A stretch of DNA of 64,000 nucleotides from Salinirubellus salinus. Its GTDB lineage: Archaea; Halobacteriota; Halobacteria; Halobacteriales; Haloarculaceae. Shown piece after piece: positions 1,686 to 48,694 of this stretch. The notes under the pieces are model-generated. The model was not told the origin of the DNA. It was given only the letters and a program-made list of their open reading frames with translations, and searched no databases. Position numbers and translations under genes: made by a program. Each line of letters starts with the position of its first letter. The first letter of the stretch is position 1. The stretch spans positions 1,860,001 through 1,924,000 of the forward strand of contig NZ_CP104003.1 of NCBI RefSeq assembly GCF_025231485.1, written 5' to 3'.

Positions 1686-2306
1686 ATGCACTCAACAGCA
1701 GCCGCTCAAACCGATGGTGAACTGACTCATGACTGCGAAGACTGCGAAGAATGCCATCTATGTGATTGGGATTCTCGGTGTCAATCCTGTACGACTTGCG
1801 AGTCGTGTGAGTGTCCGTCTGAAGACGCTAACACGGTGTTACAATGGTTTGAGCGTAGGCGTGAGATATGTATCAACTGCTTCAGGATACAACGGTACGG
1901 GCAGACTGAGCGCGGTCACGTCGAAGACGAAACCGGGCACTTGTATTCGGATTTGTTCCACAGTGAGTGTGGTGTTGGAAGTCAAAGCCCGGCCACCGTT
2001 CACCGTGGGTGGGGGCCGGGAGAAGACCCGCTACCACTCTCCGGGAGTGGTTCAGAAAAGGGTCTCACGGATGTGTTGAACGCGCTTCTTCGACTTCTTG
2101 AGTTGCTGTATATTCCTCACAATCGGGAGACCGCGTTCGACGAATTGCGTGAGCGGAAGTCTTCTGATTCGTGGTCTCGTCGGGATCGGGATTGTCTGCT
2201 TCACGCTTTGGATGCGGGAGTGGACGTGGATTGGTTCACGACACAAGTCGAGGATTTTGATTGGTTGGAGAAGGTGGCGTCGTTGTCGTTCGCTCGTTCG
2301 GAGTAG
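1686..2306 (+). CDS. Cysteine-rich protein, first gene of the structural operon
   Basis: A 206-residue protein with about ten cysteines in its first 45 residues, arranged as repeated CxxC pairs (for example CEDCEECHLC, CQSCTTCESCEC), and another CINC at about 62-65. This points to two or more zinc sites in tandem. The C-terminal half is a soluble, helical, acidic domain with no signal peptide or membrane segment. Its last codons and stop form the 5' strand of tRNA-like element (a). A regulator or assembly factor for the downstream surface proteins is conceivable, but no family is recognised. Confidence 0.65.
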   Translation: MHSTAAAQTDGELTHDCEDCEECHLCDWDSRCQSCTTCESCECPSEDANTVLQWFERRREICINCFRIQRYGQTERGHVEDETGHLYSDLFHSECGVGSQSPATVHRGWGPGEDPLPLSGSGSEKGLTDVLNALLRLLELLYIPHNRETAFDELRERKSSDSWSRRDRDCLLHALDAGVDVDWFTTQVEDFDWLEKVASLSFARSE

Positions 2307-2331
2307 CCCGAGTTCGACTCTCGGGACGAGC
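2292..2331 (+). ncRNA. tRNA-like minihelix (a): acceptor-like stem plus T-arm
   Basis: GCTCGTT (2292-2298) pairs with GACGAGC (2325-2331; six Watson-Crick pairs and one G-T). Between them CCGAG-TTCGACT-CTCGG (2308-2324) is a perfect T-arm. The 5' strand lies in the last codons of the upstream gene. The bases after it, TTGG, do not encode CCA. One of six such elements in this operon. Confidence 0.6.
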
Positions 2332-2333
2332 TT

Positions 2334-2349
2334 GGGGCCACAAGGCCCC
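2334..2349 (+). other. Hairpin next to minihelix (a)
   Basis: GGGGCC-ACAA-GGCCCC, a perfect 6-bp stem with a 4-base loop, three bases after the minihelix. No T-rich tract follows, so it is not a classical terminator. Comparable GGCC-type hairpins accompany minihelices (d) and (e). Confidence 0.55.
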
Positions 2350-2517
2350 GTTGGTTGTATAGTCTGATGGCATTCGGTTCTGTCTGTTCGACAGAGAGGG
2401 TAATACAGAATCTGCGTGTTTGCGGGGGTTCTGGGCGACGCTTGTCTACTTTGTCGCCTCTACTCATTCGGTTTCATTGGTTTGTTTTGAGCATCCCGGG
2501 TTTGGGGTGCTCATTCT
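2350..2517 (+). other. Non-coding, structured stretch ahead of the large surface-protein gene
   Basis: No convincing gene. TCTGT-CTGTTCG-ACAGA (2379-2395) is a 5-bp stem with a 7-base loop reminiscent of an anticodon arm. GAGCATCCC/GGGGTGCTC (about 2490-2513, loop GGGTTT) is a 9-bp hairpin including one G-T pair, directly before minihelix (b). Probably part of the operon transcript. Confidence 0.45.
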
Positions 2518-2561
2518 ACCCGTTTCTGGTTGTGTTCTCGGGTTCGATTCCCGGGGCGGGT
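2518..2561 (+). ncRNA. tRNA-like minihelix (b)
   Basis: ACCCGTT (2518-2524) pairs with GGCGGGT (2555-2561) with two G-T pairs. A 13-base linker is followed by the T-arm TCGGG-TTCGATT-CCCGG (2538-2554). The next bases are ATCC, not CCA. The 7/13/5-7-5/7 layout is identical to element (d). The surface-protein ATG is 73 bases downstream. Confidence 0.65.
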
Positions 2562-2593
2562 ATCCCACATCTTAGTGGGTCACATGTGGCCCC

Positions 2594-2621
2594 TGTCACC
2601 GGGTCTGCGGTTCAGGTGACA
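2594..2621 (+). other. Hairpin before the surface-protein gene
   Basis: TGTCACC (2594-2600) pairs with GGTGACA (2615-2621) around a 14-base loop, 13 bases before the ATG at 2635. A smaller stem CCCAC/GTGGG (2564-2579) lies between it and minihelix (b). Either could influence translation start. Confidence 0.45.
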
Positions 2622-2634
2622 CACACACATAATC

Positions 2635-5600
2635 ATGATTGACAAAATCACATCGAAACTGGAGTCGAATCCCCGGCTCCAACTCGTGCTCATCATGCTT
2701 TTCGTCTTCACCGGAAAGCTGATGGACACGGCCACGACATACCTGTTCTGGGGTGCTGAAACCCCTACTGGGCAAGTCATGGAGGAGCAGTCCTCCATCG
2801 TCGTTTCCCGTGTCGCTGAGTACGGATTACAGACAGGGATTGGAGTATGGACACTAGAACAACTTACAATCGGTATCGGAGCCACGCTGCTCGCGTACGC
2901 GCTCATCCGTGTAGCCACTCAGCGTAGTGACTACGCCGTTCTTGGAGCAGGAGTCGTTGGCGGCGTCATGGGTGGAATTTCGGCTTATGCCGCGATGTCG
3001 AACATCGGTTACTACACCGGTGCCGATCTCGTCCCAGTCAGTATTTACGGGACAGTCAACCCGTCAGTAGCCGCTGTATGGGCATTTGGTCTCGGTGTTC
3101 TCGGGTTGATCCTGATTCGTCCAGACCCACGCCCGTACGTGCGTATGATTCCACGTCCGTCGCAACAGACTGTGAGCGCGGTGTTCGCAGTCATGATGGT
3201 CACATCTGGGTTCGTCGGAATGGTTAACTTCGGTGGTGATTATAGTCCCGTTGAAAAGGTTGCAGCTGCCCCTACCATAGTGGATGATTTCGAGGAGGGG
3301 AATGGGCACTTCCTTGAAAGTAGTAGTGCGACTGATGTGCAGCAAAACAAAGTTTATCAAGGAGACTACGCACTCGAAACAAGTGGTGGGACCGGGACTG
3401 TGTTCGACGACTCCGTGAGCGCGTCATACTCACAGTTTTCGGGGTCTTTTCGCGCAAGCACACAACCCGTGAACGGCTATTACTCAGGCCTCACGATAGA
3501 AGGGGGTAGCGGGATGATTGGGCGGGTCATCATACATCCGGATACTGGAAAGTGGGCGTACCCCGATCCTAACTCGGCTCAGTACATCAACATGAGTGAC
3601 GCGCAGGCTGAAATCGGTGCATGGCATCGAATCAAGTTCGTGAACATCGATTACACGGCTGAAACGTACGATATTGTCGTCGAGGATAAAACCGGTGCTG
3701 TTGTAGCGTCCGCGTCAAGTGTTGGATTCGAAACATCAGCGAGTCAAATCACACAAGTCAATTATGGACGTGACGCCGCGGGACCAATGTATTATGACTC
3801 AATAACCGCCGATGGGTACACATTCACCGAGTCTGTCAGCGGGACGGTCAGGGATCAGTCTGGTGCTCCTGTCGCTAATGCGACGGTGCAGGTGACTGGT
3901 GTCAGTTCTGCGGTGTCGAACCAGCAGTCGGAGATTGATTCGATTACGAACCCGGTCCCGTCGAGTTGGGATGCGTCTCGTGCGTTGACGGGTGATGGTG
4001 GCGTCCTCTCGACTGGTGCTTCTGATGGGGCTGCCGTCCCATTGATGTATTCTCCTGAAGAAGTCGGTGAAGGAATCTGGGTCACATCGACACCGGACCT
4101 TAGCGATCCTGACCTGAAATCTGAGGACGGGGAGACGAAGGTTGCGCTTTTGGCCGTTGACCCGACAGCGGGTGACGGCATATTCGAGAATGAGCACAAC
4201 CAGCAAGTGCCGGGTAAAGTAATCGATGACGCGAACATCACGCTAACGAAACTCACTCCGTCCGGTGAAGCAGCAAGTAGTCAGACGTATGAAGTCAAGG
4301 AACACGGTGACGACGGTGGGTTCGGTGACCCAAGCAAACTGCCTTACGCGGTTGCTACGGTGACCCCGGGTTACTACCAGATGGACGTGTCCAGCGAGGA
4401 CAAGTCCATCACGTACACCGTTCGTATTGGTGAGCGTGGACAAATCGTGTCCGCTGTATTGACCGACCTTCAGACGCAGTCTGGTCAGGTCAGTCAACGC
4501 GCACAAGACGTGCGCTCTAAGGTGTCTGGTGGTACGCTGTCCACGGTCACCGTTCAGACTGACGCCAATGGTCAGTTCACGGCTGACGTGGGTCAAGACT
4601 TCACGTTCGTGTCGGTTCAAGCCTACAAGTACGGTGGATTGCTGAACGGAAACTACGAGAATGTGAGCGCGACAAGCGTTGATAACCGCTCGATTCAGGA
4701 GGCGGAAGAACTGATGCGTCAGCAGGATTACAAGGGTAGTGTTGCGCTCCCGGCTGGTGTCACGACGACTCAGCCGCCAGCCAGCAACGTCGATGTCAGG
4801 GTCATCTCGGCTCCGTCGCCGTATCAGAACCTCAGCGACTTCCAAGGTAATTACGAGGACTGGCAGGGCTTCTTGAACAATTGGACTGACAGCGAGTTGC
4901 CCGGTGTCATCCAAGACGAGATCGGGGCGTACAACAGCACCGAGTTGCAGGAAATCCGTGGAGAACTGAAGAAGTCGGTTGAAAGTAATGAGGAACTGCG
5001 GCAAGAGTACCGTGACGCGCTCGCAGAAATTCGCAACCAAGACCCACGTCAAATCGATGTTGACCTTGGCGATGAGACGAACGGGTCTGACGCAGAACTC
5101 CGTGAGGAGATCACGGCGCTTCAGCGTTCGATCCAGTCACTCCAATCGCAGGTTGACGCGGAAGACTCTGCTGGTCAGGTCAGCGACGGGCTGGCCGACT
5201 ACTCGGTGACTCTCCCGGCGCTGACTGATGTGAGTAAAGATGATGTTACAGTCCTTGCACACTACTCGGATGGTACGACAGAGATTGTCGGTGAGGAGTA
5301 CGTCAGCGTGGAGGACACGCAACTCTCATCGGGTGAACTTGGTGACACCATTCGAGTCACGGATTACGAGATTAAGCAAGACCCCGCCAATGTGCGGTTT
5401 GAGGTCATTGCTGACACCGACGATGGACTGGTGAAGGAGACTGAAGGAATCAATAATCCGGCGTTTGCTGGTAGCAGGCCCGGTGTCGATTCCATCAGCA
5501 TCAGTAATCTGCATCCTCAGACTGGTTCCAACGTTGTCGTCGGGATGAGTCCTGACGATAGTGCGGTGTTCGGGTCTGTTGACAGCGTGAACGTGATTGC

Positions 5601-6312
5601 TCCTGACGGGTCTACTGTCAGCACGACGGCTGACGGGAACGAGTACACGATTCCTGTTGAGCAGACTGGCACACACCGCGTCGAGATTGTTTACAGCAAC
5701 TCGAACGGTGACCAGTTCCGCGAAGTGTTCCGGTTCGATAGCCGTGATTCCTCGTTCGAGAACTCTCCTTCCGTGCGGCTGAAGGAAGGTAACTCCGGGC
5801 AATATGCTCTGGTGAGCAACATGGACGGCGCAAACGTGGAACGGGAAGCAGGTCAGACAACGGTGTACGCACAATTCGCACGGGGCGATGTGCCGAACCG
5901 AGTCCACCTGTACCCGTCACAAGCGACTGACTCGAACGGCCAAGTCAACGTCGAAATCGTTGAAGGGGCCAGTCAGCAGTCGATTAACAAGCGTGTGGTG
6001 ACTGAAATCCACATGTCACAGTTGTCTGAGGACGCGACTGTGTATCGTTCCAACGGCCAGCCCATCACCACGGAAGGTGTTGGGTATGGTACGATTGAAA
6101 CGTCAGAGAATGGTACTGTCATCACGACGTACACGGACGCTGACGGCACAATATCGCTGGACGTGAACAATGACCCCGGGTTCGTTGAGCGCACACAGTA
6201 CCGTGTGGACTCGTTCATTCAGGGGTTGCCGGTTGACATTCCCGGGCTTAGCATCGGAGGCGTCGCGCTTCTGATTCCGTTCGGGTTGTTCTTCGGGCGA
6301 CGACTCGCATAG
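2635..6312 (+). CDS. Giant membrane-anchored surface (spike/adhesin-like) protein, 1,225 residues
   Basis: About five hydrophobic segments lie in the first 205 residues (near 15-38, 78-95, 100-120, 145-162, 182-202). A concanavalin/LamG-like beta domain follows from about 215 to 398 (starting VDDFEEG). A carboxypeptidase-regulatory-like beta-sandwich begins near 400 (SGTVRDQSGAPVANATVQV). Later parts contain two coiled-coil patches (about 765-800 and 820-850), more beta-rich acidic repeats, many N-x-S/T sites, and a single C-terminal membrane anchor (about 1,203-1,222) ending FFGRRLA. The layout is that of an extracellular stalk protein held at both ends, suitable for a virion spike, vesicle protein or mating adhesin. 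It is followed by an exported subtilisin that might process it. It shows no close match to any halovirus spike that I recognise. Confidence 0.75.
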   Translation: MIDKITSKLESNPRLQLVLIMLFVFTGKLMDTATTYLFWGAETPTGQVMEEQSSIVVSRVAEYGLQTGIGVWTLEQLTIGIGATLLAYALIRVATQRSDYAVLGAGVVGGVMGGISAYAAMSNIGYYTGADLVPVSIYGTVNPSVAAVWAFGLGVLGLILIRPDPRPYVRMIPRPSQQTVSAVFAVMMVTSGFVGMVNFGGDYSPVEKVAAAPTIVDDFEEGNGHFLESSSATDVQQNKVYQGDYALETSGGTGTVFDDSVSASYSQFSGSFRASTQPVNGYYSGLTIEGGSGMIGRVIIHPDTGKWAYPDPNSAQYINMSDAQAEIGAWHRIKFVNIDYTAETYDIVVEDKTGAVVASASSVGFETSASQITQVNYGRDAAGPMYYDSITADGYTFTESVSGTVRDQSGAPVANATVQVTGVSSAVSNQQSEIDSITNPVPSSWDASRALTGDGGVLSTGASDGAAVPLMYSPEEVGEGIWVTSTPDLSDPDLKSEDGETKVALLAVDPTAGDGIFENEHNQQVPGKVIDDANITLTKLTPSGEAASSQTYEVKEHGDDGGFGDPSKLPYAVATVTPGYYQMDVSSEDKSITYTVRIGERGQIVSAVLTDLQTQSGQVSQRAQDVRSKVSGGTLSTVTVQTDANGQFTADVGQDFTFVSVQAYKYGGLLNGNYENVSATSVDNRSIQEAEELMRQQDYKGSVALPAGVTTTQPPASNVDVRVISAPSPYQNLSDFQGNYEDWQGFLNNWTDSELPGVIQDEIGAYNSTELQEIRGELKKSVESNEELRQEYRDALAEIRNQDPRQIDVDLGDETNGSDAELREEITALQRSIQSLQSQVDAEDSAGQVSDGLADYSVTLPALTDVSKDDVTVLAHYSDGTTEIVGEEYVSVEDTQLSSGELGDTIRVTDYEIKQDPANVRFEVIADTDDGLVKETEGINNPAFAGSRPGVDSISISNLHPQTGSNVVVGMSPDDSAVFGSVDSVNVIAPDGSTVSTTADGNEYTIPVEQTGTHRVEIVYSNSNGDQFREVFRFDSRDSSFENSPSVRLKEGNSGQYALVSNMDGANVEREAGQTTVYAQFARGDVPNRVHLYPSQATDSNGQVNVEIVEGASQQSINKRVVTEIHMSQLSEDATVYRSNGQPITTEGVGYGTIETSENGTVITTYTDADGTISLDVNNDPGFVERTQYRVDSFIQGLPVDIPGLSIGGVALLIPFGLFFGRRLA

Positions 6313-6349
6313 ACTACTAACTAACCTTACCGTTATCTGGTGATTCTTA

Positions 6350-6374
6350 CGGTGGTTCGATTCCACCGAGCGGC
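6350..6374 (+). ncRNA. T-arm-like hairpin (c)
   Basis: CGGTGG-TTCGATT-CCACCG (6350-6368) is a perfect 6-bp stem around the T-loop sequence, in the 97-base gap between the surface protein and the subtilisin. The next bases, to 6374, have no clear 5' partner, so an acceptor-like stem is not visible here; CCGT (6330-6333) can pair alternatively with ACGG (6349-6352). A further hairpin AGCAG/CTGCT (6381-6397) precedes the ATG at 6410. Confidence 0.5.
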
Positions 6375-6409
6375 CTTAGAAGCAGAAATAATCTGCTCAA
6401 ACTACAAGC

Positions 6410-7996
6410 ATGACTGACAAGCAAAAACAGAACAACGAGAAGACCGTCTCACGCCGAGACGTACTCAAAGGGGGTGCAGCCCTCGGTGTCGCGGCAACAG
6501 CCGGGACCGGTGTTGTAGCCGCTGACGGCGCGACAGAACTCATCGGTGTCGACGGGTATGTCGGGTACGATGTCCCGGACGAAGTAATCCGGTACAGCGG
6601 TAACCCCGGTATCGGTGTAAAGTACGCGGAAGGCGAATACAGCACGATCAGCGACTGGATTAACGGTTCTGATGACCGGCGAGAAGTGAAGCATCTGTCA
6701 TCGTACCGTATCGTGACGCTGAGCGCCCCAATCAATCACGTCACACACGCGGGTGTTGACCGTGTAATTGGTGACGATCCACTTGAGGCTAAGTCGTACG
6801 TTGAGGGTATCTGGTTCGACGTTCGGATGTCGTTGACAGACCCTATCAGTACGTTGAAAGCCAAGTCAGAGGCTTCTACTCCCCGGTCTCTACTGTATTC
6901 CGGGGCGTTTGACCAGACCGGGGTGGCGTACCGTGACGACGTGCAGCAGAAGACGATGACTGATGCGGTGGCGGCTGTCGGGGCTGACAACGTGACTGCT
7001 GACGGTTCTGGTGTCACGGTGGCCGTGATTGATGACGGTGTGTCGTACACGAGCAACCTGTTCGGCTCACGAGTCACGGCTGCACGGAACTTTATTTCTG
7101 ACACCGAAGTTGACCCATCGGCAACGTCGCCAGCATGGTCAGCAGTTGCGAGCGGTAGTGACCACGGGACGTGGGTTGCGTCAGCAATTCTTGGAAACCC
7201 CACAGACACGACGTACACCGGTGTTGCACCGGCGGCGAACCTGATTATTTGCAAGGCGCTGGACTCGGATGGCGGCTCAACCACCGATATTGCGGAAGCA
7301 ATCCGGTACTCCGCGGATAACGGTGCTGATGTAATAAACATGAGTCTCGGGTCACGGGTTTACAGTCCGGGCATGACTGACGCCATCGAGTACGCCGAAC
7401 AGAACGGTGTCACGGTGGTTAACGTAGCAAGCGGGAACGCACGACAGCAAGGTGTTGGCCGGTTCGTTAACACTCCCGCCGACGTGCCTCTTGACTCCGT
7501 GATGGCTGTCGGAGCCACGAGCGTCTCGACGAATGCTGATGAAGTCAAGTCGGCTTACTTCTCATCGGTTGGTCCTGACCCGTCCGTGGCAGACCTCTCG
7601 GGAGCAGAATCAGCGGGTGAAACCGTTGACATCGCCGCTCCCGGTATGGAGATTGAGGCGCAGATCGATGGTTCGACGAAGACATACAGCGGTACGTCGA
7701 TGGCGACACCGCTCGTGTCTGGTGTTCATGCGCTCGCTCTGAGCGATTCAGCACTATCGACTGAGGAACTGGTGTCCCGTACAGCCGCGACTGCGACACG
7801 TGTCCAGAACGTCGGTGTCACGGAGTGTGGGGCTGGTGTAATCGATGCGGCAGACCTCATCAGTAACACCGAGTCGAGTGACGCCCAAGAAGACGTGCTG
7901 ACGCCTGAAGCGTTGGCTCGTGACGAAGCAAACCGTAGCATGGGCGGGCGATTCGGCTCGCAAATCCGACGGCTTGAACTTCAATTCGGAATCTAA
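6410..7996 (+). CDS. Tat-exported subtilisin-family (S8) serine protease
   Basis: Twin-arginine signal near residues 14-40 (SRRDVLKGGAALGVAA). The catalytic triad is clear: Asp208 in VAVIDDG, His252 in DHGTWVAS, Ser430 in SGTSMATP, with the oxyanion Asn343 in ASGN. The stretch between signal and catalytic domain (about 40-190) fits an inhibitory propeptide. The protein has 528 residues, within the halolysin size range, but no C-terminal anchor is evident. It lies two bases before the next Tat protein and downstream of the giant surface protein, so a role in maturing surface proteins outside the cell is a reasonable guess. Degradation of host envelope proteins is the main alternative. Confidence 0.9.
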   Translation: MTDKQKQNNEKTVSRRDVLKGGAALGVAATAGTGVVAADGATELIGVDGYVGYDVPDEVIRYSGNPGIGVKYAEGEYSTISDWINGSDDRREVKHLSSYRIVTLSAPINHVTHAGVDRVIGDDPLEAKSYVEGIWFDVRMSLTDPISTLKAKSEASTPRSLLYSGAFDQTGVAYRDDVQQKTMTDAVAAVGADNVTADGSGVTVAVIDDGVSYTSNLFGSRVTAARNFISDTEVDPSATSPAWSAVASGSDHGTWVASAILGNPTDTTYTGVAPAANLIICKALDSDGGSTTDIAEAIRYSADNGADVINMSLGSRVYSPGMTDAIEYAEQNGVTVVNVASGNARQQGVGRFVNTPADVPLDSVMAVGATSVSTNADEVKSAYFSSVGPDPSVADLSGAESAGETVDIAAPGMEIEAQIDGSTKTYSGTSMATPLVSGVHALALSDSALSTEELVSRTAATATRVQNVGVTECGAGVIDAADLISNTESSDAQEDVLTPEALARDEANRSMGGRFGSQIRRLELQFGI

Positions 7997-7998
7997 AA

Positions 7999-8739
7999 AT
8001 GAAGGACGATGCCAGTACCCGACGAGACTTTTTGCGGGGTGTGGGAGCGGCAACAGCCCTGTATGCAGGGACTGGTGTCGTTTCCGCTGACCACACCGCT
8101 GACCCTGACGGGGACGCTGACGACGAATACTGGAACGCCAAACCGTCCGGTGTCACCATCTCGTACGACGAAGCACTCCTCAGCGAGTATCAGCCGTACC
8201 TTCGCGTCTCGCATCTCAACGAACAACCCGTCGGAATGTATGCGTGGGTAGTTGATTCAACGGATAGAGACACGCAAGCATTGGTTTACTGGACGTATTA
8301 CGCGCTACAAACCGGGTTATCGTCCGCTGATTCACACGTCCAAGACCGGGAACCGATCTATGTGTTCCGCGACACAGACACCGGTCAGATCGAAGAAGTC
8401 GTGTATAGCGGCTACCATTGGCTGGCGGCCCGTACACCGACACCCCAAACATCGGGGAATCATCCTATGATGTACGTGGTCAAGCCGTGGCATCATTACG
8501 TGGGTGCGAGTGATTCAGGGCGGCAAATCGACTTACAGCCATTGCATGACGTGTTCGGCAGTTGGCTGGTGAATGGGTGGGCGGAACATCTCGCACCGGG
8601 CACAGTCACGAATCCGTGGGGTATGCGGTCTCGTGAGTCATGGTGGCGGAGGAGTTCGTTCGACTTCAGTTTTGCAGAAACGTTCGCTCAAGTAAACCTC
8701 TTGTTGGGGCGTAAAGGCGCTGACACAACCGATCTCTAA
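7999..8739 (+). CDS. Tat-exported protein of unknown function
   Basis: A 246-residue protein whose Tat signal (TRRDFLRGVGAATALYAGTG, residues about 6-25) closely resembles that of the subtilisin two bases upstream, so both travel folded across the membrane. The mature part is rich in Trp, Tyr and His (for example YHWLAARTP, KPWHHYVG, NPWGMRSRESWWRRSSFDFSF) and contains no membrane segment. No catalytic signature is recognised. Operon position suggests a partner or inhibitor of the protease, or a minor structural protein. Confidence 0.75.
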   Translation: MKDDASTRRDFLRGVGAATALYAGTGVVSADHTADPDGDADDEYWNAKPSGVTISYDEALLSEYQPYLRVSHLNEQPVGMYAWVVDSTDRDTQALVYWTYYALQTGLSSADSHVQDREPIYVFRDTDTGQIEEVVYSGYHWLAARTPTPQTSGNHPMMYVVKPWHHYVGASDSGRQIDLQPLHDVFGSWLVNGWAEHLAPGTVTNPWGMRSRESWWRRSSFDFSFAETFAQVNLLLGRKGADTTDL

Positions 8740-8813
8740 ACACGACTTGGTGTGCCGATGACCCCTGTTTTGTGGGCGAGGCAACTTGTGTCGGTGTTTG
8801 AGAAGCACCCCCT

Positions 8814-8833
8814 AAGAGGCCGTCAGGCCTCTT
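8814..8833 (+). other. Hairpin before minihelix (d)
   Basis: AAGAGGCC (8814-8821) pairs perfectly with GGCCTCTT (8826-8833) around GTCA. It ends two bases before minihelix (d). There is no downstream T tract, so it is more likely an RNA-stability or processing structure than a terminator. Confidence 0.55.
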
Positions 8834-8835
8834 CC

Positions 8836-8879
8836 ACTCATCTTGGTAGTTCCTACTCGGTTCGATTCCGAGTGTGAGT
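8836..8879 (+). ncRNA. tRNA-like minihelix (d)
   Basis: ACTCATC (8836-8842) pairs with TGTGAGT (8873-8879): five Watson-Crick pairs, one G-T, one mismatch. A 13-base linker is followed by the perfect T-arm CTCGG-TTCGATT-CCGAG (8856-8872). Same layout as (b), with completely different stem sequence. Followed by CTAA, not CCA. The next ATG is at 8963. Confidence 0.65.
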
Positions 8880-8962
8880 CTAAATCCCAGTACCATCCCG
8901 GGATGGGTCAGTCACGAGCGACACACGTGACTGTCAAAACAAAACTGTGTCAACTTGAAACA

Positions 8963-9973
8963 ATGTTGAATTTCAACAAGAAGACTGGTCTCAGCGTTCT
9001 CGCGGCGCTCATGCTTGTCATGTCCGTATTCTCGGGCGTGGGCATGGCCGCGATTGACAACGAGACCACAACGACAACAAGTACCTCTGACATCGTTCAG
9101 GGGACAGCAGTATCGATTAACAGCACATCAAGCGGCTCCTACACGCTTCAAGCAGACTCGCTGACCGCTGACGGTCAGTTTGAGATTCGGGACGCTAACG
9201 GGAACGTCCTGATCGTCGCTGACAACCTCACAGTAGTTGACAGCGCATCTGGGACGTACTCAGCGAGTATCAGCGACTCTGACCTGCGCCAGAACGTCAA
9301 CCTTGACGACGGCACAGCAGCCAATCTGACGCTGGTGGCCATCGACGACACGACGCTGGACGACGCAAATCAGACTGAATCCAGCGTGACGTTCGACGTG
9401 ACGGCTGACGACTTCAGCAGCCGCTCTGTGGACGCTAACTCCACGGGCGTCGATCTCGGTGACGAACCGACGGAAGTCCTCGGTCTCTCCTTTGGGGAGC
9501 AGGACGCAGAAGTGGACATCAACGGCGTTGCTGTTGACGGTAACACCAGCGAGGTTGTTATCGACACGTCTGACGCCGAACTCACGGACGCGCTTGCGCT
9601 TGAGGGCCTCGACAGCGAGAACCCGGTCATTGAGCAGTCTGCTAGTGTTGGCGGGGAGCACGTCCCGCTTTACTACGGGGCCGCTCCCGCTGACGAGGAT
9701 GGCGCTCACGTCGTCGCTGACGGCGACGATTACGTGTTCGTCCCCGCTAGCGGTGCGAACTACACGTCTGGCGACACCGTTGACATCACGATCAGCAGCG
9801 AGGGCTTCGGTGTTCTCGACGCTGGTGACGTTGTTGACCTGTACGAGTCCGCTGACTACGGTTACACCGGATTCTTCAGCGATTACACGAGTAGCATGAT
9901 CCCCGGCTTCGTCGGCGGATTCAGCCTCATCGGTGGCGCGTTCGTTCTCGTTCGCCGTCGCAACGTAGCGTAA
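8963..9973 (+). CDS. Secreted surface protein with PGF-CTERM-like sorting signal
   Basis: I start at the ATG at 8963, giving 336 residues, because MLNFNKKTGLSVLAALMLVM begins a typical Sec signal (cleavage near GMAA); the frame is open to 8843 but that part overlaps minihelix (d). The mature part is very acidic, rich in Thr, Ser and Asp with several N-x-S/T sites, as in S-layer-type glycoproteins. The C-terminus reads IPGFVGGFSLIGGAFVLVRRR: Pro-Gly-Phe, a hydrophobic helix and an Arg cluster, matching the tripartite archaeosortase (PGF-CTERM) signal. If processed by host archaeosortase A it would be lipid-anchored. It is the best candidate for an abundant envelope protein of the element. Confidence 0.8.
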   Translation: MLNFNKKTGLSVLAALMLVMSVFSGVGMAAIDNETTTTTSTSDIVQGTAVSINSTSSGSYTLQADSLTADGQFEIRDANGNVLIVADNLTVVDSASGTYSASISDSDLRQNVNLDDGTAANLTLVAIDDTTLDDANQTESSVTFDVTADDFSSRSVDANSTGVDLGDEPTEVLGLSFGEQDAEVDINGVAVDGNTSEVVIDTSDAELTDALALEGLDSENPVIEQSASVGGEHVPLYYGAAPADEDGAHVVADGDDYVFVPASGANYTSGDTVDITISSEGFGVLDAGDVVDLYESADYGYTGFFSDYTSSMIPGFVGGFSLIGGAFVLVRRRNVA

Positions 9974-10000
9974 AACCACACACTTCAAAATTATTAAACT

Positions 10001-10285
10001 ATGTTAAGTGATACACTCGGAAGCAATCGCAGTAACGCACTATATCGTCTCACATTCTTCATCGGAAACGTCGCAACGGGATTCGTCCCGCTCGCAGCAG
10101 TGACCGCGCTCGGTTTTATCGCCGGGATCGTGTTCATGCTCGGTGACGTTCTCAAAGGCCTTGTAACGGACTCTGACGCCAGTCTGGGCGAGTCACAGTC
10201 CATGGGGCTGTGGATGTGGGGGATCGACATGACCGCGTGGATGCTGTTCGGGGATCGTGACTTCCCGTTCCTCCCCGACTTCTGA
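10001..10285 (+). CDS. Small membrane protein, 94 residues
   Basis: Two hydrophobic segments are visible (about 19-45, TFFIGNVATGFVPLAAVTAL onward, and about 66-85, MGLWMWGIDMTAWMLFG). The C-terminus FGDRDFPFLPDF is aromatic. It begins 27 bases after the PGF-CTERM-like protein with no tRNA-like element between, so the two are probably kept on one mRNA. Small membrane proteins next to an envelope glycoprotein are typical of pleomorphic haloviruses, but no homology is asserted. Confidence 0.65.
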   Translation: MLSDTLGSNRSNALYRLTFFIGNVATGFVPLAAVTALGFIAGIVFMLGDVLKGLVTDSDASLGESQSMGLWMWGIDMTAWMLFGDRDFPFLPDF

Positions 10286-10333
10286 GACCGGCTCAGAAGC
10301 ATTCCAGTCAGTATGTGACTCCGTAATCGTATA

Positions 10334-10354
10334 GGCACACAAACAACCTGTGCC
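10334..10354 (+). other. Hairpin before minihelix (e)
   Basis: GGCACA (10334-10339) pairs with TGTGCC (10349-10354) around a 9-base A/C-rich loop, about 50 bases after the preceding stop codon and 23 bases before minihelix (e). Confidence 0.5.
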
Positions 10355-10377
10355 GTCCTCTGGGCGGCCTCATTCTT

Positions 10378-10437
10378 GCTCCTCGTGGATTAGCACGTCA
10401 TCACGTGCGCGTGTTGGGTTCGACTCCCAACAGGAGC
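10378..10437 (+). ncRNA. tRNA-like element (e): acceptor stem, central hairpin and T-arm
   Basis: GCTCCTC (10378-10384) pairs with CAGGAGC (10431-10437) over six bases with only the last position mismatched. GCACGT-CATC-ACGTGC (10393-10408) forms a central 6-bp hairpin. TTGGG-TTCGACT-CCCAA (10414-10430) is a perfect T-arm. At 60 bases it lacks the four-arm plan of a tRNA. The 3' flank CTCA matches that of element (f). Cleavage after base 10438 would leave a 22-base leader before the next ATG (10461). Confidence 0.65.
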
Positions 10438-10460
10438 CTCAGCGGCAAACCAATATTACA

Positions 10461-10625
10461 ATGATTTCGCCGTACCCTGAGCCCGAGCAGGTCCGGTGTG
10501 GACGCATTGAATGTGAGGGTGAGACAGGTGAGTTCAGCAACCACCTCGACTCTCTCTGCATCCGATGCCCCGCCTGTGACCGTATTCTCTGGCTCGACTA
10601 CAACACAACTCAATTAGAACAATGA
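10461..10625 (+). CDS. Zinc-ribbon miniprotein, 54 residues
   Basis: Begins MISPYPEPEQVRCGRIECEG. Cysteines at about 13, 18, 34 and 37 (C-x4-C and CPAC) form a plausible zinc ribbon. The longer frame from 10350 crosses element (e) and is unlikely to be translated. Its end overlaps the start of the next gene by four bases (ATGA), so expression is coupled. Confidence 0.65.
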   Translation: MISPYPEPEQVRCGRIECEGETGEFSNHLDSLCIRCPACDRILWLDYNTTQLEQ

Positions 10626-11239
10626 ATAGTAAACTCACAGCAGTCCTCTTCGCGGTCCTCATCGCTACAAGCGGTGTCGGTGTCGTGTCAGCGGACCACA
10701 CCACCTCAGTCTTCGATGATCTTACCGAAGGCGACGGTGTGGTGGCGCAGACAGTCGCCGGTGTAGACGGTGTTAAAGACCGTCTCGTCCGCTCAGCCAT
10801 GGACCGATTCGGGGACGACGACACAACAGTGACAGACTCGGCTTCAGCATTGAAGTCAGAAATAAACCAGAACTCAGACCTGTACCAGCAGCGTTTGAAC
10901 ACGAATATTGACGCCTCAACGACTCGTGACACCATTGAGGTCACGCATTGTCAGGATGGTAACAAGCAGGTGCAGTACGTTACCGCTGACGTTGTTGACG
11001 GATCGTACACCAATCTGAGCGTCGTTGACTCGACGAATCGAACCGCTGACGAATGGGTGTACCTTGAGGAGCCAGCCAGCGAGAACGTTGCTGACGAACT
11101 CCAGTCACTCCGCCAGTCCTACATTGGTAGCGGTGACGCTATCCCCCGGTCTGCGGCTGTCGGTCTCGGAGCCGAGTACAAGGGATCAGCGTCTACGAGT
11201 CTGATGGAGCACGACAAGCCAACGTGCGGTGAGAACTGA
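10622..11239 (+). CDS. Secreted protein of unknown function, 205 residues
   Basis: A clean Sec signal peptide (MNSKLTAVLFAVLIATSGVG, cleavage near VSA-DH) precedes an acidic extracellular domain with a few N-x-S/T sites. There is no C-terminal anchor. One cysteine lies mid-protein and one near the C-terminus, which could form a disulfide. Start overlaps the zinc-ribbon stop (ATGA) and its own stop overlaps the next start by one base, so the genes at 10,461, 10,622 and 11,239 form a tightly coupled group. Confidence 0.7.
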   Translation: MNSKLTAVLFAVLIATSGVGVVSADHTTSVFDDLTEGDGVVAQTVAGVDGVKDRLVRSAMDRFGDDDTTVTDSASALKSEINQNSDLYQQRLNTNIDASTTRDTIEVTHCQDGNKQVQYVTADVVDGSYTNLSVVDSTNRTADEWVYLEEPASENVADELQSLRQSYIGSGDAIPRSAAVGLGAEYKGSASTSLMEHDKPTCGEN

Positions 11240-11529
11240 TGGGTGTTCTCGACTACCTTGGTGACTCCTTTGGAACCGTCAAGGATTGGACCGTGGACGC
11301 CATCACGGACACGGCTGACCTCATCGTTGATGAAGCGGAAAACAGCATTAATTACGGGTCTGTGACGCCGTTGGAGCAGATGCGTGGGTCCGTTGTGATT
11401 GCGTCCCTTGCGATTGCGTCGTCGTTCGTGACGTTCGGCGCGACATTAGCCATCGCGGGAGTGATGGGCCTCACATTCTTGTGGGGATTAGGCCGATGGT
11501 TCTGGGGTCTCGGCGGCGAACTCAGGTGA
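11239..11529 (+). CDS. Small membrane protein, 96 residues
   Basis: The N-terminal half is soluble and acidic (DYLGDSFGTVKDWTVDAIT). The C-terminal half holds two closely spaced hydrophobic segments (about 52-70 and 72-90) ending in WGLGRWFWGLGGELR, a Trp/Gly-rich amphipathic tail of the kind found next to membranes. Its ATG overlaps the stop of the upstream secreted protein by one base. No family is recognised. Confidence 0.65.
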   Translation: MGVLDYLGDSFGTVKDWTVDAITDTADLIVDEAENSINYGSVTPLEQMRGSVVIASLAIASSFVTFGATLAIAGVMGLTFLWGLGRWFWGLGGELR

Positions 11530-11536
11530 TTAATTG

Positions 11537-12463
11537 ATGCGTTTCACACCGACACTCGTGGTTCTCATGCTTCTCATCTCTGGGTTAGCAGCCGTGGCTC
11601 CAGCCACCGCCGCCCCGGAACGCATCGACTTGGGTAGTGACCCACTCGGCGCAGACGACGCAATCACGCAGTATGAGGAAGACGGCTCCGTGAAGCAGAA
11701 TCTGACCCGTTACGACATGAGTATCGGGTACATGGACGACGCCGAGACGCTGGACTGGTACGAACCAAGCACAGCGTCAGAACTCGGGAATGAATGGCTG
11801 ACAGTGTGCTACAATGAGGACATTCCCCGTGAATACACGTTCATAGTTGACGATTCGTACTTCAACCCGGTAACTGAAGAAGCCGTAGAATCGCGTACAG
11901 GAGATGTGACGGCTGAATACGAGCCGACAGAAGGCCGGAACGGGACACGGGTCACAATGACGTTCAACGGGGCTGGATGTCACGCATTCCCGGTGTCGAA
12001 CGCTGACTCGTTCGTATTCGGATACAGCGGTGACTTGAAGGAACGGGTTGAGAACTCGACTGGTTGGAGTCCAACCATCCCGGGCATCTCTGGTAGCCCT
12101 GACTGGAACCTGATTAAAGGCTCAACGCTTGATGACCGCACGAGCGTCGCCATCCCGATTACGCAGGAGAACGCAACAGTTCAGTATCGCGTGTATTCGG
12201 ATGGTGAAACCCGGTGGCGGCCTGTTCCTGAGTCCAGTCAGGAATCGCATCCCGTCTACACGATGACTAAGGACGGGGACCCCGACACAACCTACGTTGT
12301 GAGCCGTACGTCGGAAGCACCTCAAGTCAGATGGATAGAGGGCACGCCCGGGGCTGGTTCATCCATCTCTTCGGCTATCGATGATATTCTGAGCGGTCTG
12401 CAGGACTTCATCGATGACTTGACACCAAATACACCCGGTTCGATGGTGATAGTTCATGCTTGA
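11537..12463 (+). CDS. Secreted protein of unknown function, 308 residues
   Basis: The ATG at 11537 gives MRFTPTLVVLMLLISGLAAV, a Sec signal with cleavage near ATAA. A TTG three bases earlier could also be used. The mature part is beta-rich and acidic with several N-x-T/S sites and two cysteines about 48 residues apart that could form a disulfide (CYNEDIP and GAGCHAF). Near the C-terminus is a short linker (SSISSAIDDILSGLQDFIDDL) and no anchor. The last eight bases overlap the next ORF. Its place among envelope genes suggests a structural or adhesion role. Confidence 0.7.
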   Translation: MRFTPTLVVLMLLISGLAAVAPATAAPERIDLGSDPLGADDAITQYEEDGSVKQNLTRYDMSIGYMDDAETLDWYEPSTASELGNEWLTVCYNEDIPREYTFIVDDSYFNPVTEEAVESRTGDVTAEYEPTEGRNGTRVTMTFNGAGCHAFPVSNADSFVFGYSGDLKERVENSTGWSPTIPGISGSPDWNLIKGSTLDDRTSVAIPITQENATVQYRVYSDGETRWRPVPESSQESHPVYTMTKDGDPDTTYVVSRTSEAPQVRWIEGTPGAGSSISSAIDDILSGLQDFIDDLTPNTPGSMVIVHA

Positions 12464-12668
12464 AATTGATGTTAATCCCACGACAATCCTGTTGGTATTG
12501 GTTCTCGGGGGTGCGGTGTTTTTTGCATTCGCATACCTCGCAGCAGCACTTTCACAGTTCATTTTCTTGTTCGGTGTCCTGATTATATTGGCCATCTCGT
12601 ACGGTATCATCGTACGAATCAAGAAGCGACTCAGGGGGGATAGCCGCAACGGCGGCGGTGGTCTGTAA
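12456..12668 (+). CDS. Small two-helix membrane protein, 70 residues
   Basis: Two hydrophobic segments (about 10-32 and 35-53) are followed by a basic cytoplasmic tail (RIKKRLRGDSRNGGGG). It overlaps the upstream gene by eight bases and the downstream gene by one (TAATG), so it is translationally coupled on both sides. Size and plan resemble small virion or vesicle membrane proteins. No homologue is recognised. Confidence 0.65.
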   Translation: MLEIDVNPTTILLVLVLGGAVFFAFAYLAAALSQFIFLFGVLIILAISYGIIVRIKKRLRGDSRNGGGGL

Positions 12669-12952
12669 TGGCGCTTGGACTTGGCGCATCGCTGGGGATC
12701 GCGTTGGTGGCCACGATTGGCATCATCGCTTTGTCCGTGATGTTCAACGACTCCATGAAATCGTTATATGATGTGCTCCGAACCGCCCGGGGTCTCGCGT
12801 ATCTGGTTCTCGGTTCGTTGTCTGCTATCGTGTTTATCTCGACGGGGAACATGGCGCTCATGGTTCTCGGATTGATTCTCGTGTTCTTTCTTGTGACGTA
12901 CTTCTTATTCGACTATTATTCGCCGTGGAGTGCGGCTTCACGGCGCTTCTAA
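12668..12952 (+). CDS. Small three-helix membrane protein, 94 residues
   Basis: Hydrophobic segments near residues 5-25, 38-58 and 60-83 leave only short loops. The C-terminus FDYYSPWSAASRRF is positively charged and probably cytoplasmic. Its last codons and stop form the 5' strand of tRNA-like element (f), so coding sequence and RNA structure overlap here. Confidence 0.65.
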   Translation: MALGLGASLGIALVATIGIIALSVMFNDSMKSLYDVLRTARGLAYLVLGSLSAIVFISTGNMALMVLGLILVFFLVTYFLFDYYSPWSAASRRF

Positions 12953-12998
12953 CACTTCTGACTGGTGTCTTCGGTGGGGTTCGATTCCCCGCAGAAGC
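12945..12998 (+). ncRNA. tRNA-like element (f), ending four bases before a start codon
   Basis: GCTTCTA (12945-12951) pairs with CAGAAGC (12992-12998) over six bases, last position mismatched as in (e). ACAC (12952-12955) pairs with GTGT (12965-12968). TGGGG-TTCGATT-CCCCG (12975-12991) is the T-arm. Counting C12999 as the discriminator, cleavage there would give an mRNA beginning TCA-ATG, that is an almost leaderless message for the gene at 13003. Confidence 0.65.
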
Positions 12999-13002
12999 CT
13001 CA

Positions 13003-13512
13003 ATGAATACAAAATCAATCGAGGAGCAACTGCAACGAGCCTACGATATTTTGGCTCGTGCAGACGTTCCAGACGGTCTTGAATCGGACGCGAATGAAAC
13101 GCTGAACGTTGTCGTGGCCGAGTTAGCGCGACGACGCTCGGAACGATCATACACACGTCACGTGTCAGCCGTTATTGCACGTGAGCACAGCCTGAAGCGA
13201 CGGGGAAAACGTGACCAACCCCTGTGCAGGTGTCACGACAGCCTGTGCCCGCTCAGTCGTGGCCGCCTACCCCCACAGTTGCGCCCATCATCCTCATCGA
13301 ATTTCGGGAAGAGCGACGCTGAAGACCTGATCGAATCCTATGAGGAAACCCATCCAGAAGCAGTCGTATTGCGCGAAGCACGTGAGGAATGGCAGGACGA
13401 TCTCGCTGACATGGAACGACGACTCCGCGAAACAATCGCCCGCATCAAGTCACATCGAACACAGACAGGAGGTTCGGACAAGTATACAGCAGTTAACGGT
13501 GGTGCAGAATGA
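13003..13512 (+). CDS. Hypothetical helical protein, 169 residues
   Basis: Begins MNTKSIEEQLQRAYDILAR directly after element (f). The first 60 residues and the last 60 (EEWQDDLADMERRLRETIARI) are charged amphipathic helices that could pair as coiled coils. The centre carries C-x-C-x4-C and His residues (CRCHDSLCPLSRG), a possible metal site. No signal or membrane segment. The last four bases overlap the ATPase start (ATGA), which suggests that the product works with the ATPase. Confidence 0.65.
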   Translation: MNTKSIEEQLQRAYDILARADVPDGLESDANETLNVVVAELARRRSERSYTRHVSAVIAREHSLKRRGKRDQPLCRCHDSLCPLSRGRLPPQLRPSSSSNFGKSDAEDLIESYEETHPEAVVLREAREEWQDDLADMERRLRETIARIKSHRTQTGGSDKYTAVNGGAE

Positions 13513-15689
13513 CTGAAGAAACACCTGACCACGTTATCGGTGACGAGACACGAGCGGTTAGTGACAACGTTGCTTCGAACACCGAATCCGAGCAAGAGCA
13601 AAAGCGACGCATAGTAGTGAAGCGCGGTGTGAAAACCGTGTACGAATACCTGACGCTTGGACGGTATCGGTCTGCTGGTGTTATTTTGCGTGACCGGTTA
13701 CTGCCCGCATTAGACATCGATGACGTGACGATTGAAGGCGCTGACGACGTGATTCGAGGATCAGAATTGGACTGGTATTACGATTCGGTGAAAGCGTTCC
13801 TCAGAGCACCAAACCAATACATTAGAGCAGCACCAGAACGTGGGGACACAATTCGTGAGAACGCGCTGGAGAACGCTGTGAACTCGGCACACGGATACGA
13901 GTCACCGAGTCGTAGAGCGCAGACAGTTGTAAAAGAAACCGCTCAGTCGGCCCACTCGGCTGCTATCGGGCAGGGGATTATTCCGCGAACTCTGGACCGT
14001 AGCAGTCGGGTAATGGGTCTCAGCGTCCAGATGGGTCTTCAACACACGAGTTGGACAATGGACATGCCTGACCCGGTGTCGATGTTCCGGGGTGAGAAGG
14101 ACATGCCGTTCGTGCTTGCCGTCGGCGACACGAGTTCAGGTAAGTCTACGTTTGTCGCGAGAGCCGTTGAAGACCGCTACGAGGCCGGTCACAAAGTCCT
14201 CGACATTCATGACCGGAAGAAGCTTGAGAACGGTGTGTACGACATCGCACAACAACAGCAGACACTCCGGGAAGTCCGTCGGAAACTCGGCCTCCAGCCG
14301 GGGCTCGACGAACAAGACGACGAAGATGACCGGGAACTCGAAATATACGTGCCTATCTCGTCGAATCTGAAAGAGAAGAAGGTACTATACTACGAGGACG
14401 GAACGTGCCGTATCAAGCCGTTCGCTGTCGATGTCAGTAGCCTTCCCGACACACTTCTGAGCGCGTTCGCAGGCAACCTGACACAGAACCAGTCGGCTGA
14501 ATGGAACAATCAACTCGAATTGATCGAAGGTGACTGGACGCTCGCCGATCTGGTGGAACGGATTGCTGAGGGAGACGCTGACGACACCGTTAAACAGGTT
14601 CTCATCACCCGGCTCAAGACGATGCAGTCGAACGGGTGGCTACGGGACGCTGACTCCGATTACTTGCTCGATTGGGAGAACATTTTCCGTGACACAGACA
14701 CCATCACGTGCTTCAGCACGAGTTTGATGAAGGATGACCGGTCAAAGTACCGAGTCTTCCTATACCTGTTGAGCACGATTTACTCGGAGCGTGAGCAGAA
14801 GCAGGACGGCGCGTACGCCCCTGCTACCATCGTAATGAGAGAACTATCCCATATCGCACCATCCCGGACTAATCGGTCAAGTGACCCTGTTGAACAAGGA
14901 CTCCAAGACCGAATCTCAGATAAAATGCGTAAGGTAGCGTCCGAATCCGGTCACGAACAAATGGAACTCGTGAGCGACACGCAGCATTGGAAACAAGTCG
15001 CTAAACGTGTTCGTGAACACTTGAACGTCGTTGTGATGTATCGGCTGGACTACACAGCCGCTGAAGACCCGTTCTCGGATAAGTTGGGGCGAGTCAAGCA
15101 CAAATACATTCGGACAGTCACGCAACAAGAGACCGGCGAGGCAACTGTTATTGCCGACAATCAACGGATTCAGGGCGAAGGGAAGTCGTACCGGTTCGTG
15201 CAACCCGTGCAGATGGTGCCCCCGGCGTGTCATCACGTGGATCGAAAAGCGCAATACAATACTGGATGGCTCTGCCGTGACGCGTACACCGACGAATACT
15301 TGGACGAGATACCGTCTGATTGGCCGGTTGACGTTCCCCCACGGCTCCGTGTTGACGCTCCTGACATCGACGAACAGAATCAGCACGAAGGCATTGTCGC
15401 GTTCTTACGTGATTGTACGTCAATGGACGACAACGAGCGAGCCCCGAAAGAAGACATGCGTAAAGCGTATAGCGCGTTCGCTGAAGAGCACGGGTACGAT
15501 CTGCACGAGTCATCTGACTCGTTCGGCCAATGGGTGGCTGAACTCGTCGACGTTGAAACTGGTTCTGGTGTCCGTGCCCGGCAGTCAGACCTGAATCGTT
15601 CACAAGACGACTATGACTCACAGCGTCCGTATGCCTATGGTGGCATCCGCTTGAATCAGAAAGGTCTGGATTACCTGAATCAGCAGTAG
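13509..15689 (+). CDS. P-loop ATPase (HerA/VirB4-like) with D5/primase-type C-terminal domain
   Basis: A 726-residue cytoplasmic protein. Residues about 200-460 are a motor ATPase: Walker A GDTSSGKS at 206-213, and a Walker-B-like strand ATIVMRELSHI at about 439-449 with a catalytic Glu but Arg instead of the usual Asp. An acidic insert (about 268-282) separates them. The last 110 residues (FLRDCTSMDDNERAPKEDMR, then FGQWVAEL, then YGGIRL) have the plan of the winged helix that ends viral D5-type primase-helicases. A packaging or DNA-transfer motor with its own DNA-binding tail fits best. It closes the structural operon, where genome-packaging or vesicle-loading ATPases are often found. Confidence 0.7.
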   Translation: MTEETPDHVIGDETRAVSDNVASNTESEQEQKRRIVVKRGVKTVYEYLTLGRYRSAGVILRDRLLPALDIDDVTIEGADDVIRGSELDWYYDSVKAFLRAPNQYIRAAPERGDTIRENALENAVNSAHGYESPSRRAQTVVKETAQSAHSAAIGQGIIPRTLDRSSRVMGLSVQMGLQHTSWTMDMPDPVSMFRGEKDMPFVLAVGDTSSGKSTFVARAVEDRYEAGHKVLDIHDRKKLENGVYDIAQQQQTLREVRRKLGLQPGLDEQDDEDDRELEIYVPISSNLKEKKVLYYEDGTCRIKPFAVDVSSLPDTLLSAFAGNLTQNQSAEWNNQLELIEGDWTLADLVERIAEGDADDTVKQVLITRLKTMQSNGWLRDADSDYLLDWENIFRDTDTITCFSTSLMKDDRSKYRVFLYLLSTIYSEREQKQDGAYAPATIVMRELSHIAPSRTNRSSDPVEQGLQDRISDKMRKVASESGHEQMELVSDTQHWKQVAKRVREHLNVVVMYRLDYTAAEDPFSDKLGRVKHKYIRTVTQQETGEATVIADNQRIQGEGKSYRFVQPVQMVPPACHHVDRKAQYNTGWLCRDAYTDEYLDEIPSDWPVDVPPRLRVDAPDIDEQNQHEGIVAFLRDCTSMDDNERAPKEDMRKAYSAFAEEHGYDLHESSDSFGQWVAELVDVETGSGVRARQSDLNRSQDDYDSQRPYAYGGIRLNQKGLDYLNQQ

Positions 15690-47818: not shown

Positions 47819-48694
47819 CTATCGCTCCAGATTCAGGGGCGCGAGCGTCGCGAACATCGCCTCCTCCGTCCGGACGACGTCGCTCCCCTGTCGCGGAACC
47901 GTATTGAGCCAGAGGTCGAACCGGGCTAGCGGTTCGTTTCCGTCGGATTCGTCGCTCGTCTCCACGGTGGAGACGGTCTCCTCGTTCGGCCCACCGCCGA
48001 AGATCTCCGGTAGCCCCCGGTCGGGGGCGCCGAAGACCACGGTGAGTCCACCCTCGGTGTCGACGCGCTGGACGAGACTGTCCAGCCGCGACACCGTGAG
48101 TTCCTCGCCGTGGCGGGACGCGGCGATGCGGAGCCCAGCGTCCGAACGCTGGAGCGCCGTCTCGACCGCTTCCCGTTCGACTGTGAACCCTGGGAGGGGT
48201 TCGTCCACGAGCTTTGCGCGGAGTGGCCGTCGCGAAGAGACCCTGATGGTCACGCGTGCTCCCTCGCTCGGTGACGCCATCGACGGCGGCACCGGGAGGG
48301 AGACCGGGTGTTGCAGTCCGCAATTGACCCGAACGCGCCCGTCAGGTCCGACCTCGGTCACGATTCCCTGTCTTAACGACCCCGAACCCTTCGATCCGGA
48401 GCCGGTCTGTGAGCCGACGCGGAGCGGCGGCAACACGCCGACGTGCTCCAGTTCGTCGCGCACGTCCCACGCCTCCTTTCGGAGGTAGGGGGGTGTGGCC
48501 GCGTAGGCCAGCACCGTGGCGACGAACCCGCCACCGTACCGCCCGTCCTCGCCCCCGGAATCGGGGTAGACGACGAGTCGGTCGACCCGGAACACCGCCG
48601 CCGCACGGGCGACGTAGCCGAGTTTGCGAGTCGCCTCGCGTTTGTCCTCGGCCTCCCGGACCAGCGATGACGGCACGAGCACGGTTCGTGTCAT
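47819..48694 (-). CDS. SPOUT-class RNA methyltransferase, first gene of the ribosomal operon
   Basis: 291 residues starting MTRTVLVPSSLVREAEDKREAT. The N- and C-terminal parts form a knotted SAM-binding SPOUT fold (VFGAPDRGLPEIFGG near 230-244 in the knot), with an OB-fold inserted in the middle (about 95-180). This family (putative RNA uridine-N3 methyltransferase; related to eukaryotic SPOUT1/C9orf114) regularly precedes rpl3 in haloarchaea, so it probably modifies rRNA during ribosome assembly. A promoter-like CTTTTACGG lies about 55 bases upstream. Confidence 0.88.
   Translation of the reverse strand: MTRTVLVPSSLVREAEDKREATRKLGYVARAAAVFRVDRLVVYPDSGGEDGRYGGGFVATVLAYAATPPYLRKEAWDVRDELEHVGVLPPLRVGSQTGSGSKGSGSLRQGIVTEVGPDGRVRVNCGLQHPVSLPVPPSMASPSEGARVTIRVSSRRPLRAKLVDEPLPGFTVEREAVETALQRSDAGLRIAASRHGEELTVSRLDSLVQRVDTEGGLTVVFGAPDRGLPEIFGGGPNEETVSTVETSDESDGNEPLARFDLWLNTVPRQGSDVVRTEEAMFATLAPLNLER

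Follow-up and report, generated by a model that had tools for sequence, protein, structure and literature searches.

Within a 64,000-nucleotide stretch of Salinirubellus salinus (contig NZ_CP104003.1, positions 1,860,001 to 1,924,000; hereafter the window), the structural operon (1686-15689, + strand) of a pR1SE-like plasmid-vesicle element (apHPV) carries six transfer RNA (tRNA)-like structures, or t-elements, between its genes. Their fold, covariation, kinship with the t-element of 5S ribosomal RNA (rRNA), and recurrence at gene junctions elsewhere lead us to infer that they are probably sites at which tRNase Z cuts the polycistronic messenger RNA (mRNA).

Six tRNA-like minihelices in one operon

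The T-arm loops of the six t-elements (a to f), which read TTCGACT or TTCGATT, begin at 2313, 2543, 6356, 8861, 10419, and 12980, all on the + strand, and each is closed by a T-stem of at least 6 bp. The chance expectation for such T-arms, with stems of at least 6 bp and both strands considered, is 0.055 per 64-kb window under a dinucleotide Markov model, against the 6 seen. When stems of at least 5 bp were admitted, the remaining matches in the window were a genuine tRNA-Gly gene at 52946-53017 (−) and a single hairpin with a 5-bp stem at 34017 (−), probably a chance occurrence. Neither ARAGORN nor Rfam called any of the six a tRNA.

In each copy, a 5' strand pairs with the bases that follow the T-arm, so that acceptor and T-stem are predicted to stack into a helix of 12 bp. 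The resulting architecture is that of a mini-tRNA devoid of the D-arm, with a 6-bp acceptor, a GG-containing linker, a 6-bp T-stem, and the loop TTCGAYT. Whereas the 12-bp stack of a tRNA is divided 7+5 between acceptor and T-stem, that of the window t-elements is divided 6+6. The acceptor is fully paired in a, b, d, and e, has 5 of 6 pairs in c, and reaches 6 bp in f in one of two alternative registers.

T-element a spans 2292-2332 (acceptor 2292-2297/2326-2331, GCTCGT/ACGAGC; GG linker; T-stem 2307-2312/2320-2325; loop TTCGACT 2313-2319; discriminator 2332; 40.8 bits with the covariance model R1 described below), overlaps the stop codon of the upstream open reading frame (ORF), and is followed by the hairpin GGGGCC-ACAA-GGCCCC. 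T-element b (2518-2562; acceptor ACCCGT/GCGGGT; linker TTCTGG..; loop TTCGATT 2543-2549; 43.7 bits) precedes the gene for a large surface protein and is trailed by the hairpin CCCAC-ATCTTA-GTGGG. At the junction of the surface protein and subtilase genes lies c (6329-6375; acceptor CCGTT/AGCGG; linker CTGG; loop TTCGATT 6356-6362; 38.5 bits), with the hairpin AGCAGA..TCTGCT behind it, and d (8836-8880; acceptor ACTCAT/GTGAGT; linker TTGG; loop TTCGATT 8861-8867; 44.6 bits) stands ahead of the gene for an ORF9-like (S-layer-like) protein. The longest copy, e (10378-10438; acceptor GCTCCT 10378-10383/AGGAGC 10432-10437; T-stem 10413-10418/10426-10431; loop TTCGACT 10419-10425), precedes a 54-residue CxxC ORF and contains an additional central hairpin (GCACGT 10393-10398/ACGTGC 10403-10408); a 96-nucleotide (nt) stretch is predicted to fold in this way at −36.5 kcal. 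T-element f occupies 12955-12999 (acceptor CTTCTG 12955-12960/CAGAAG 12992-12997; linker CTGG; loop TTCGATT 12980-12986; 38.5 bits), its other acceptor register being GCTTCT 12945-12950/AGAAGC 12993-12998, and the predicted cut behind it would leave a leader of 3 nt ahead of the ATG at 13003.

All operon gaps of at least 45 nt are occupied, namely 2306-2635 (a and b), 6312-6410 (c), 8739-8963 (d), 10285-10461 (e), and 12952-13003 (f), and the ORF map places no t-element in gaps of at most 27 nt or at overlapping junctions. An earlier note on this DNA had proposed this distribution, with one or two copies in every wide gap and none elsewhere, and had likewise reported six coding-strand hairpins with the loop TTCGA(T/C)T; both statements hold, the loops starting 5 nt past the positions it gave. 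Its acceptor of 7 nt in five of the six copies needs revision: an acceptor pairing does exist, but c pairs as well, and a 6-bp acceptor joined to a 6-bp T-stem describes the copies better. The central hairpin that it assigned to both e and f is evident in e and not clear in f.

Covariation, separation from tRNAs, and the 5S rRNA link

Covariance model R1 was built from 14 copies and then used to collect more. Among 71 distinct haloarchaeal copies, the 6+6 structure is paired in 95.9% of cells, pairing falls to 43-51% when partners are shifted by one column, and the helices hold 124 double changes against 26.4 in shuffles, a level reached in 0 of 500 of them; these counts are biased towards the structure because the copies were collected with the model. 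The linker GG is present in 70 of the 71, and the loop TTCGAYT is nearly invariant. A set from mycobacteriophage Fowlmouth that was aligned without any model also covaries (7 copies, 30 double changes versus 9.3). The earlier suggestion that the stems differ in sequence and still pair is thereby borne out, and the covariance-model search that it proposed in related haloarchaeal elements returned further copies with covarying helices.

We compared the t-elements with 40 of the 44 tRNA genes of the host. The host T-loop is TTCAAAT or TTCGAAT in 37 of the 40, and a sixth T-stem pair occurs in none (0/40), in contrast to the TTCGAYT loop and six T-stem pairs of the t-elements. Identity as a tRNA gene was rejected, since the copies form no cloverleaf with a D-arm, an anticodon arm, a tRNA-type loop, and a 5-bp T-stem; an attachment (att) site or host tRNA 3' fragment was rejected as well, identity to the host tRNAs being at most 18 of 25 nt and the longest exact match 13 nt. 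The least probable of the explanations that we weighed is accordingly that mobile elements left tRNA-gene fragments or att sites behind. Mobile elements do often carry tRNA 3' ends, and the longest words common to the copies and the host tRNAs are 8-13 nt, but the two strands of the acceptor covary, six different copies stand in one operon, their loop and stem signatures are unlike those of the host tRNAs, and they occupy the gaps of operons, not the ends of elements. Judged by these comparisons, the t-elements are a separate class, neither tRNA fragments nor att sites.

The t-element in front of the 5S rRNA of Haloferax volcanii is reportedly a tRNase Z site, and the window copies match its sequence and structure family. 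When the host genome was searched with R1, the top matches were the window copies a, b, c, d, and f, with e missed on account of its long insert, and a weak match was found directly upstream of the sole 5S gene, with the linker ACTGGCG. This type of linker, and the minihelix architecture, are common to the window copies and the host 5S t-element, and the comparison backs the view of the earlier note that the junctions carry tRNA-like minihelices. In other haloarchaea, 5S-linked copies score well with R1, and in 16 of 16 5S matches the last base of the model immediately precedes the mature 5S 5' end; the 3' edge of the model thus provides an independent, base-exact prediction of the cut for the mRNA copies. 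tRNase Z is reported to mature the 5' end of 5S in Haloferax, where these t-elements also function in vivo as artificial signals for processing (PMC3296008, PMC4326828). Both RNase P and tRNase Z are said to accept t-elements as substrates in Haloferax (PMC4326828), and both enzymes might cut and release the minihelix, as in the full proposal of the earlier note, a variant that is compatible with cutting by tRNase Z and adds a second cut to it. We consider this conceivable but somewhat doubtful: no 5'-side signature turned up, although no detailed test was aimed at one, and in the best-known case, 5S, it is the 3' cut that makes the functional product.

The sequence behind the predicted cut is not random. 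At 116 distinct non-5S sites, the first base is T in 98, and CCA, an anti-determinant of tRNase Z, directly follows the discriminator in none (0/116). An ATG occurs at 0-4 nt in 16 of the 116 (6 in shuffles); at the remaining 100 sites, a stem-loop begins within 5 nt in 74 and at the first base in 48 (14.3 ± 3.5 in dinucleotide shuffles). Of the window copies, a, b, and c have hairpins behind them, and the RNA downstream of f would be nearly leaderless. Such structuring fits the creation of a new 5' end at these positions. GC-rich intergenic hairpins could also be transcription terminators or attenuators, which we find very improbable here: the helix is followed by T-C-C-C-C or TTATG with no T run, and a terminator would not hold the T-loop sequence invariant. 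The terminator role was rejected on the base counts past the helix, which contain no such run.

Occurrence in related elements, haloarchaeal operons, viruses, and phages

Gene content assigns the operon to a plasmid-vesicle element of the pR1SE type: its 246-residue protein matches Halorubrum lacusprofundi pR1SE, and the order of ORF6 to ORF9 is identical. The element sits within the 4.13-Mb contig of the host, and the operon contains the syntenic core ORF6-ORF7(S8)-ORF8-ORF9 that serves as the apHPV criterion. All genes of the operon lie on the + strand. The first gene of the operon encodes a Cys-rich protein of 206 residues (1686-2306). It is followed by the 1225-residue surface protein in the ORF6 position (2635-6312; homologues in relatives ~24-31% identical), a subtilase with a Tat signal in the ORF7 position (Peptidase_S8; 6410-7996; PF00082, 2.2e-38), and the 246-residue homologue of the subtilase-adjacent pR1SE ORF8 (7999-8739; 34.6% identity over 48%, E 7e-8). 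The ORF9 (S-layer-like) position is taken by a secreted protein of 336 residues with a C-terminal transmembrane segment (8963-9973; start 8903 or 8963), behind which small membrane and secreted proteins (10001-12952) start at 10001, 10461, 10622, 11239, 11534, 12456, and 12668. The last two genes of the operon, which are syntenic in 12 relatives, encode a 169-residue protein (13003-13512) and a 726-residue P-loop protein (13509-15689). Pfam and PHROG searches identified little besides the subtilase, and the P-loop and ORF8-like proteins, used as queries against phages and viral contigs, gave zero matches. Elsewhere in the window, Rfam family RF03135 (L4-Archaeoglobi leader) matches 48243-48345 (−) with 64.4 bits, upstream of an apparent ribosomal protein L3 gene.

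Twelve syntenic haloarchaeal relatives were chosen through the P-loop protein, at ~30% identity. Canonical T-arm minihelices are present on the coding strand in 10 of the 12 and nearly absent from the opposite strand, where the single match, in relative L036, lacks the canonical loop. Relative L038 carries t-elements at the junctions of b (4470), c (8524), and d (10914), with unrelated stem sequences; in other relatives, they lie ahead of the gene corresponding to that starting at 10622 or of a neighbour. An ATG stands 2-3 nt past the discriminator in window copy f and in L029, L030, L033, L034, L035 (twice), and L144. On pR1SE itself, the model matches strongly at 49708-49748 (42.8 bits) and weakly at 5981-6022.

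At E ≤ 0.01, R1 finds matches in 283 of the 392 haloarchaeal genomes, 5S copies being among them. Many of the other matches cluster between genes whose products bear a SipW-type signal peptide, a camelysin/VWA or DUF1102 domain, and likeness to the fimbrial TafA/TafE. Chromosomal haloarchaeal arrays of SipW-signal/Taf-like fimbrial genes (L081-L100) have t-elements between the genes, and a TTCCCC...GGGG hairpin comes after the element. The gene context of the matches rests on crude ORF calling: 28 of 132 matches fell "inside" an ORF, many apparently from ORFs extended upstream of their true start, so that junction counts are not a clean measure; the 132 were also drawn from the best-scoring matches. 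A second model, R2, trained on archaeal copies only, matched 16 genomes of a 148-genome phylum sample at E ≤ 0.001, all 16 from the haloarchaeal order.

Among haloviruses, HF2 carries t-elements at the gene junctions 2905-2946 and 4375-4415, neither named in the annotation of its record; HRTV-7 carries one at 54584-54625 of its record (55.9 bits), and HSTV-2 and HCTV-6 have copies with an additional hairpin. The HF2 record (AF222060) also annotates a hammerhead ribozyme between two genes at 10292-10359 (L194), possibly a second RNA-cutting device beside the t-elements. HF2 transcripts extend up to 35 kb by reverse transcription PCR, and RNAs of 0.5-9 kb are observed, for which processing is suspected (PMC8707807).

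Pattern scans extended the occurrence to bacteria, where lactobacillal prophages and uncultivated phages carry the element 2-16 nt behind a stop codon. Those of Lactobacillales prophages and uncultivated bacterial phages (L101, L103, L109, L122-L142) form a minihelix with a GG linker, and several have two copies 0.4-1.3 kb apart; Rfam assigned no family to the phage copies at the gathering score. In mycobacteriophage Fowlmouth (MH834613.1, 33793-41080), more than 10 unannotated copies stand at consecutive junctions, all on the + strand and none on the − strand, with the T-loop 31-55 nt past the stop codon in nearly all and the element ~8 nt behind the stop. The Fowlmouth minihelices have AACGGTTTTC-like linkers and are followed by an ACGAA-type sequence.

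The earlier note had described the feature in a single element. That frame is too narrow, because the same t-element occurs widely across operons of haloarchaea and is also present in other viruses and plasmids and in some phages of bacteria. From its recurrence at junctions in other elements, fimbrial operons, haloviruses, and phages, the t-element probably marks where the tRNA-trimming enzyme of the host cuts.

Proposed cutting and relation to known systems

We propose that tRNase Z of the host recognizes the 12-bp acceptor/T-arm stack together with the T-loop, the linker GG probably aiding recognition by mimicking G18-G19 of the tRNA elbow. The enzyme would cut one base, the discriminator, past the 3' acceptor strand, that is, after 2332, 2562, 6375, 8880, 10438, and 12999. 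The upstream mRNA would then carry a compact tRNA-like fold at its 3' end and may thereby be shielded from 3' exonucleases, and the downstream mRNA would gain a defined 5' end that is near-leaderless (AUG within 4 nt) or capped by a short stem-loop. One long transcript would in this manner yield several units, each translated in its own way and with a stability of its own.

Several observations weigh against this proposal. In HF2, the one 5' end that has been mapped close to a copy, T-4384, falls within the 5' portion of that element and off the predicted cut (PMC8707807). T-element e has no clear 5' hairpin or near AUG, and d has only a weak hairpin. Most relatives carry the T-arms, and L038 has them at three of the same junctions, but L032 (same stems, other loop) and L039 (none) are without a canonical T-loop copy and several relatives carry just a single copy; which junctions are punctuated thus varies between relatives. 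Finally, selected other tRNA-like elements of Haloferax reportedly stayed uncut in vitro, and a tRNA-like fold is therefore not sufficient for cutting.

Those uncut elements also favor another explanation, in which the minihelices are uncut stabilizers or modulators of expression, through 3'-end protection, spacing, or binding of a tRNA-binding protein, and the position just behind stop codons in Fowlmouth and in the bacterial phages and prophages would suit a 3'-protective fold. We nevertheless consider it unlikely, as such a role needs neither an invariant T-loop, nor a fixed length of 12 bp, nor, above all, the precise structuring of the post-cut sequence, and the 5S copies recognized by the same model do undergo cutting. 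Cutting by tRNase Z can be extended to a broader statement, on which we are evenly divided: that viruses, plasmid-vesicle elements, and fimbrial operons of Archaea and Bacteria generally use this D-arm-less 6+6-bp tRNA mimic to mark cuts between the cistrons of polycistronic mRNAs, having arrived at it separately or by transfer, and that the host tRNase Z thereby gives downstream cistrons leaderless or hairpin-capped 5' ends.

Should these sites be cut, the tRNA machinery would break up many operons of haloarchaea and viruses post-transcriptionally, which would help to explain the short RNAs derived from long halovirus transcripts and would open a route to leaderless mRNAs within operons. The signal would then be searchable genome-wide, with base-exact predictions.

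Pieces of this picture have precedents. The pR1SE-like apHPV share the order ORF6-ORF7(S8 peptidase)-ORF8-ORF9 with the window operon, and the accessible portions of their description make no mention of an RNA element (PMC10818511). The HF1-group haloviruses, like the elements studied here, have non-coding tRNA-like features and suspected processing of long transcripts; the "tRNA-like" feature in the available parts of those reports is a truncated tRNA-Thr attP, and the junction t-elements of HF2 are not named there (PMC7230728, PMC8707807). A literature search, with most subscription papers outside its scope, found no account of a mobile element, archaeal or bacterial, with t-elements separating its protein genes.

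To our knowledge, a tRNA-like cutting mark is accepted in prokaryotes for 5S rRNA only. The 5S t-element of Haloferax volcanii resembles the window copies in its acceptor/T-arm minihelix, CTGG linker, T-loop, and 3' edge at a functional 5' end; unlike it, the window type separates protein-coding genes within an mRNA, often in several copies per operon, and in many cases has a 5' hairpin or an AUG immediately behind it. Punctuation of mRNA by tRNAs is a hallmark of mitochondria, whose transcripts are divided in this way, and plant mitochondria have t-elements. There, as here, tRNA-like folds mark cuts between coding units, but the mitochondrial marks are real tRNAs or larger mimics, whereas the putative mark described here is a 6+6-bp D-arm-less mimic in mobile elements and operons of prokaryotes.

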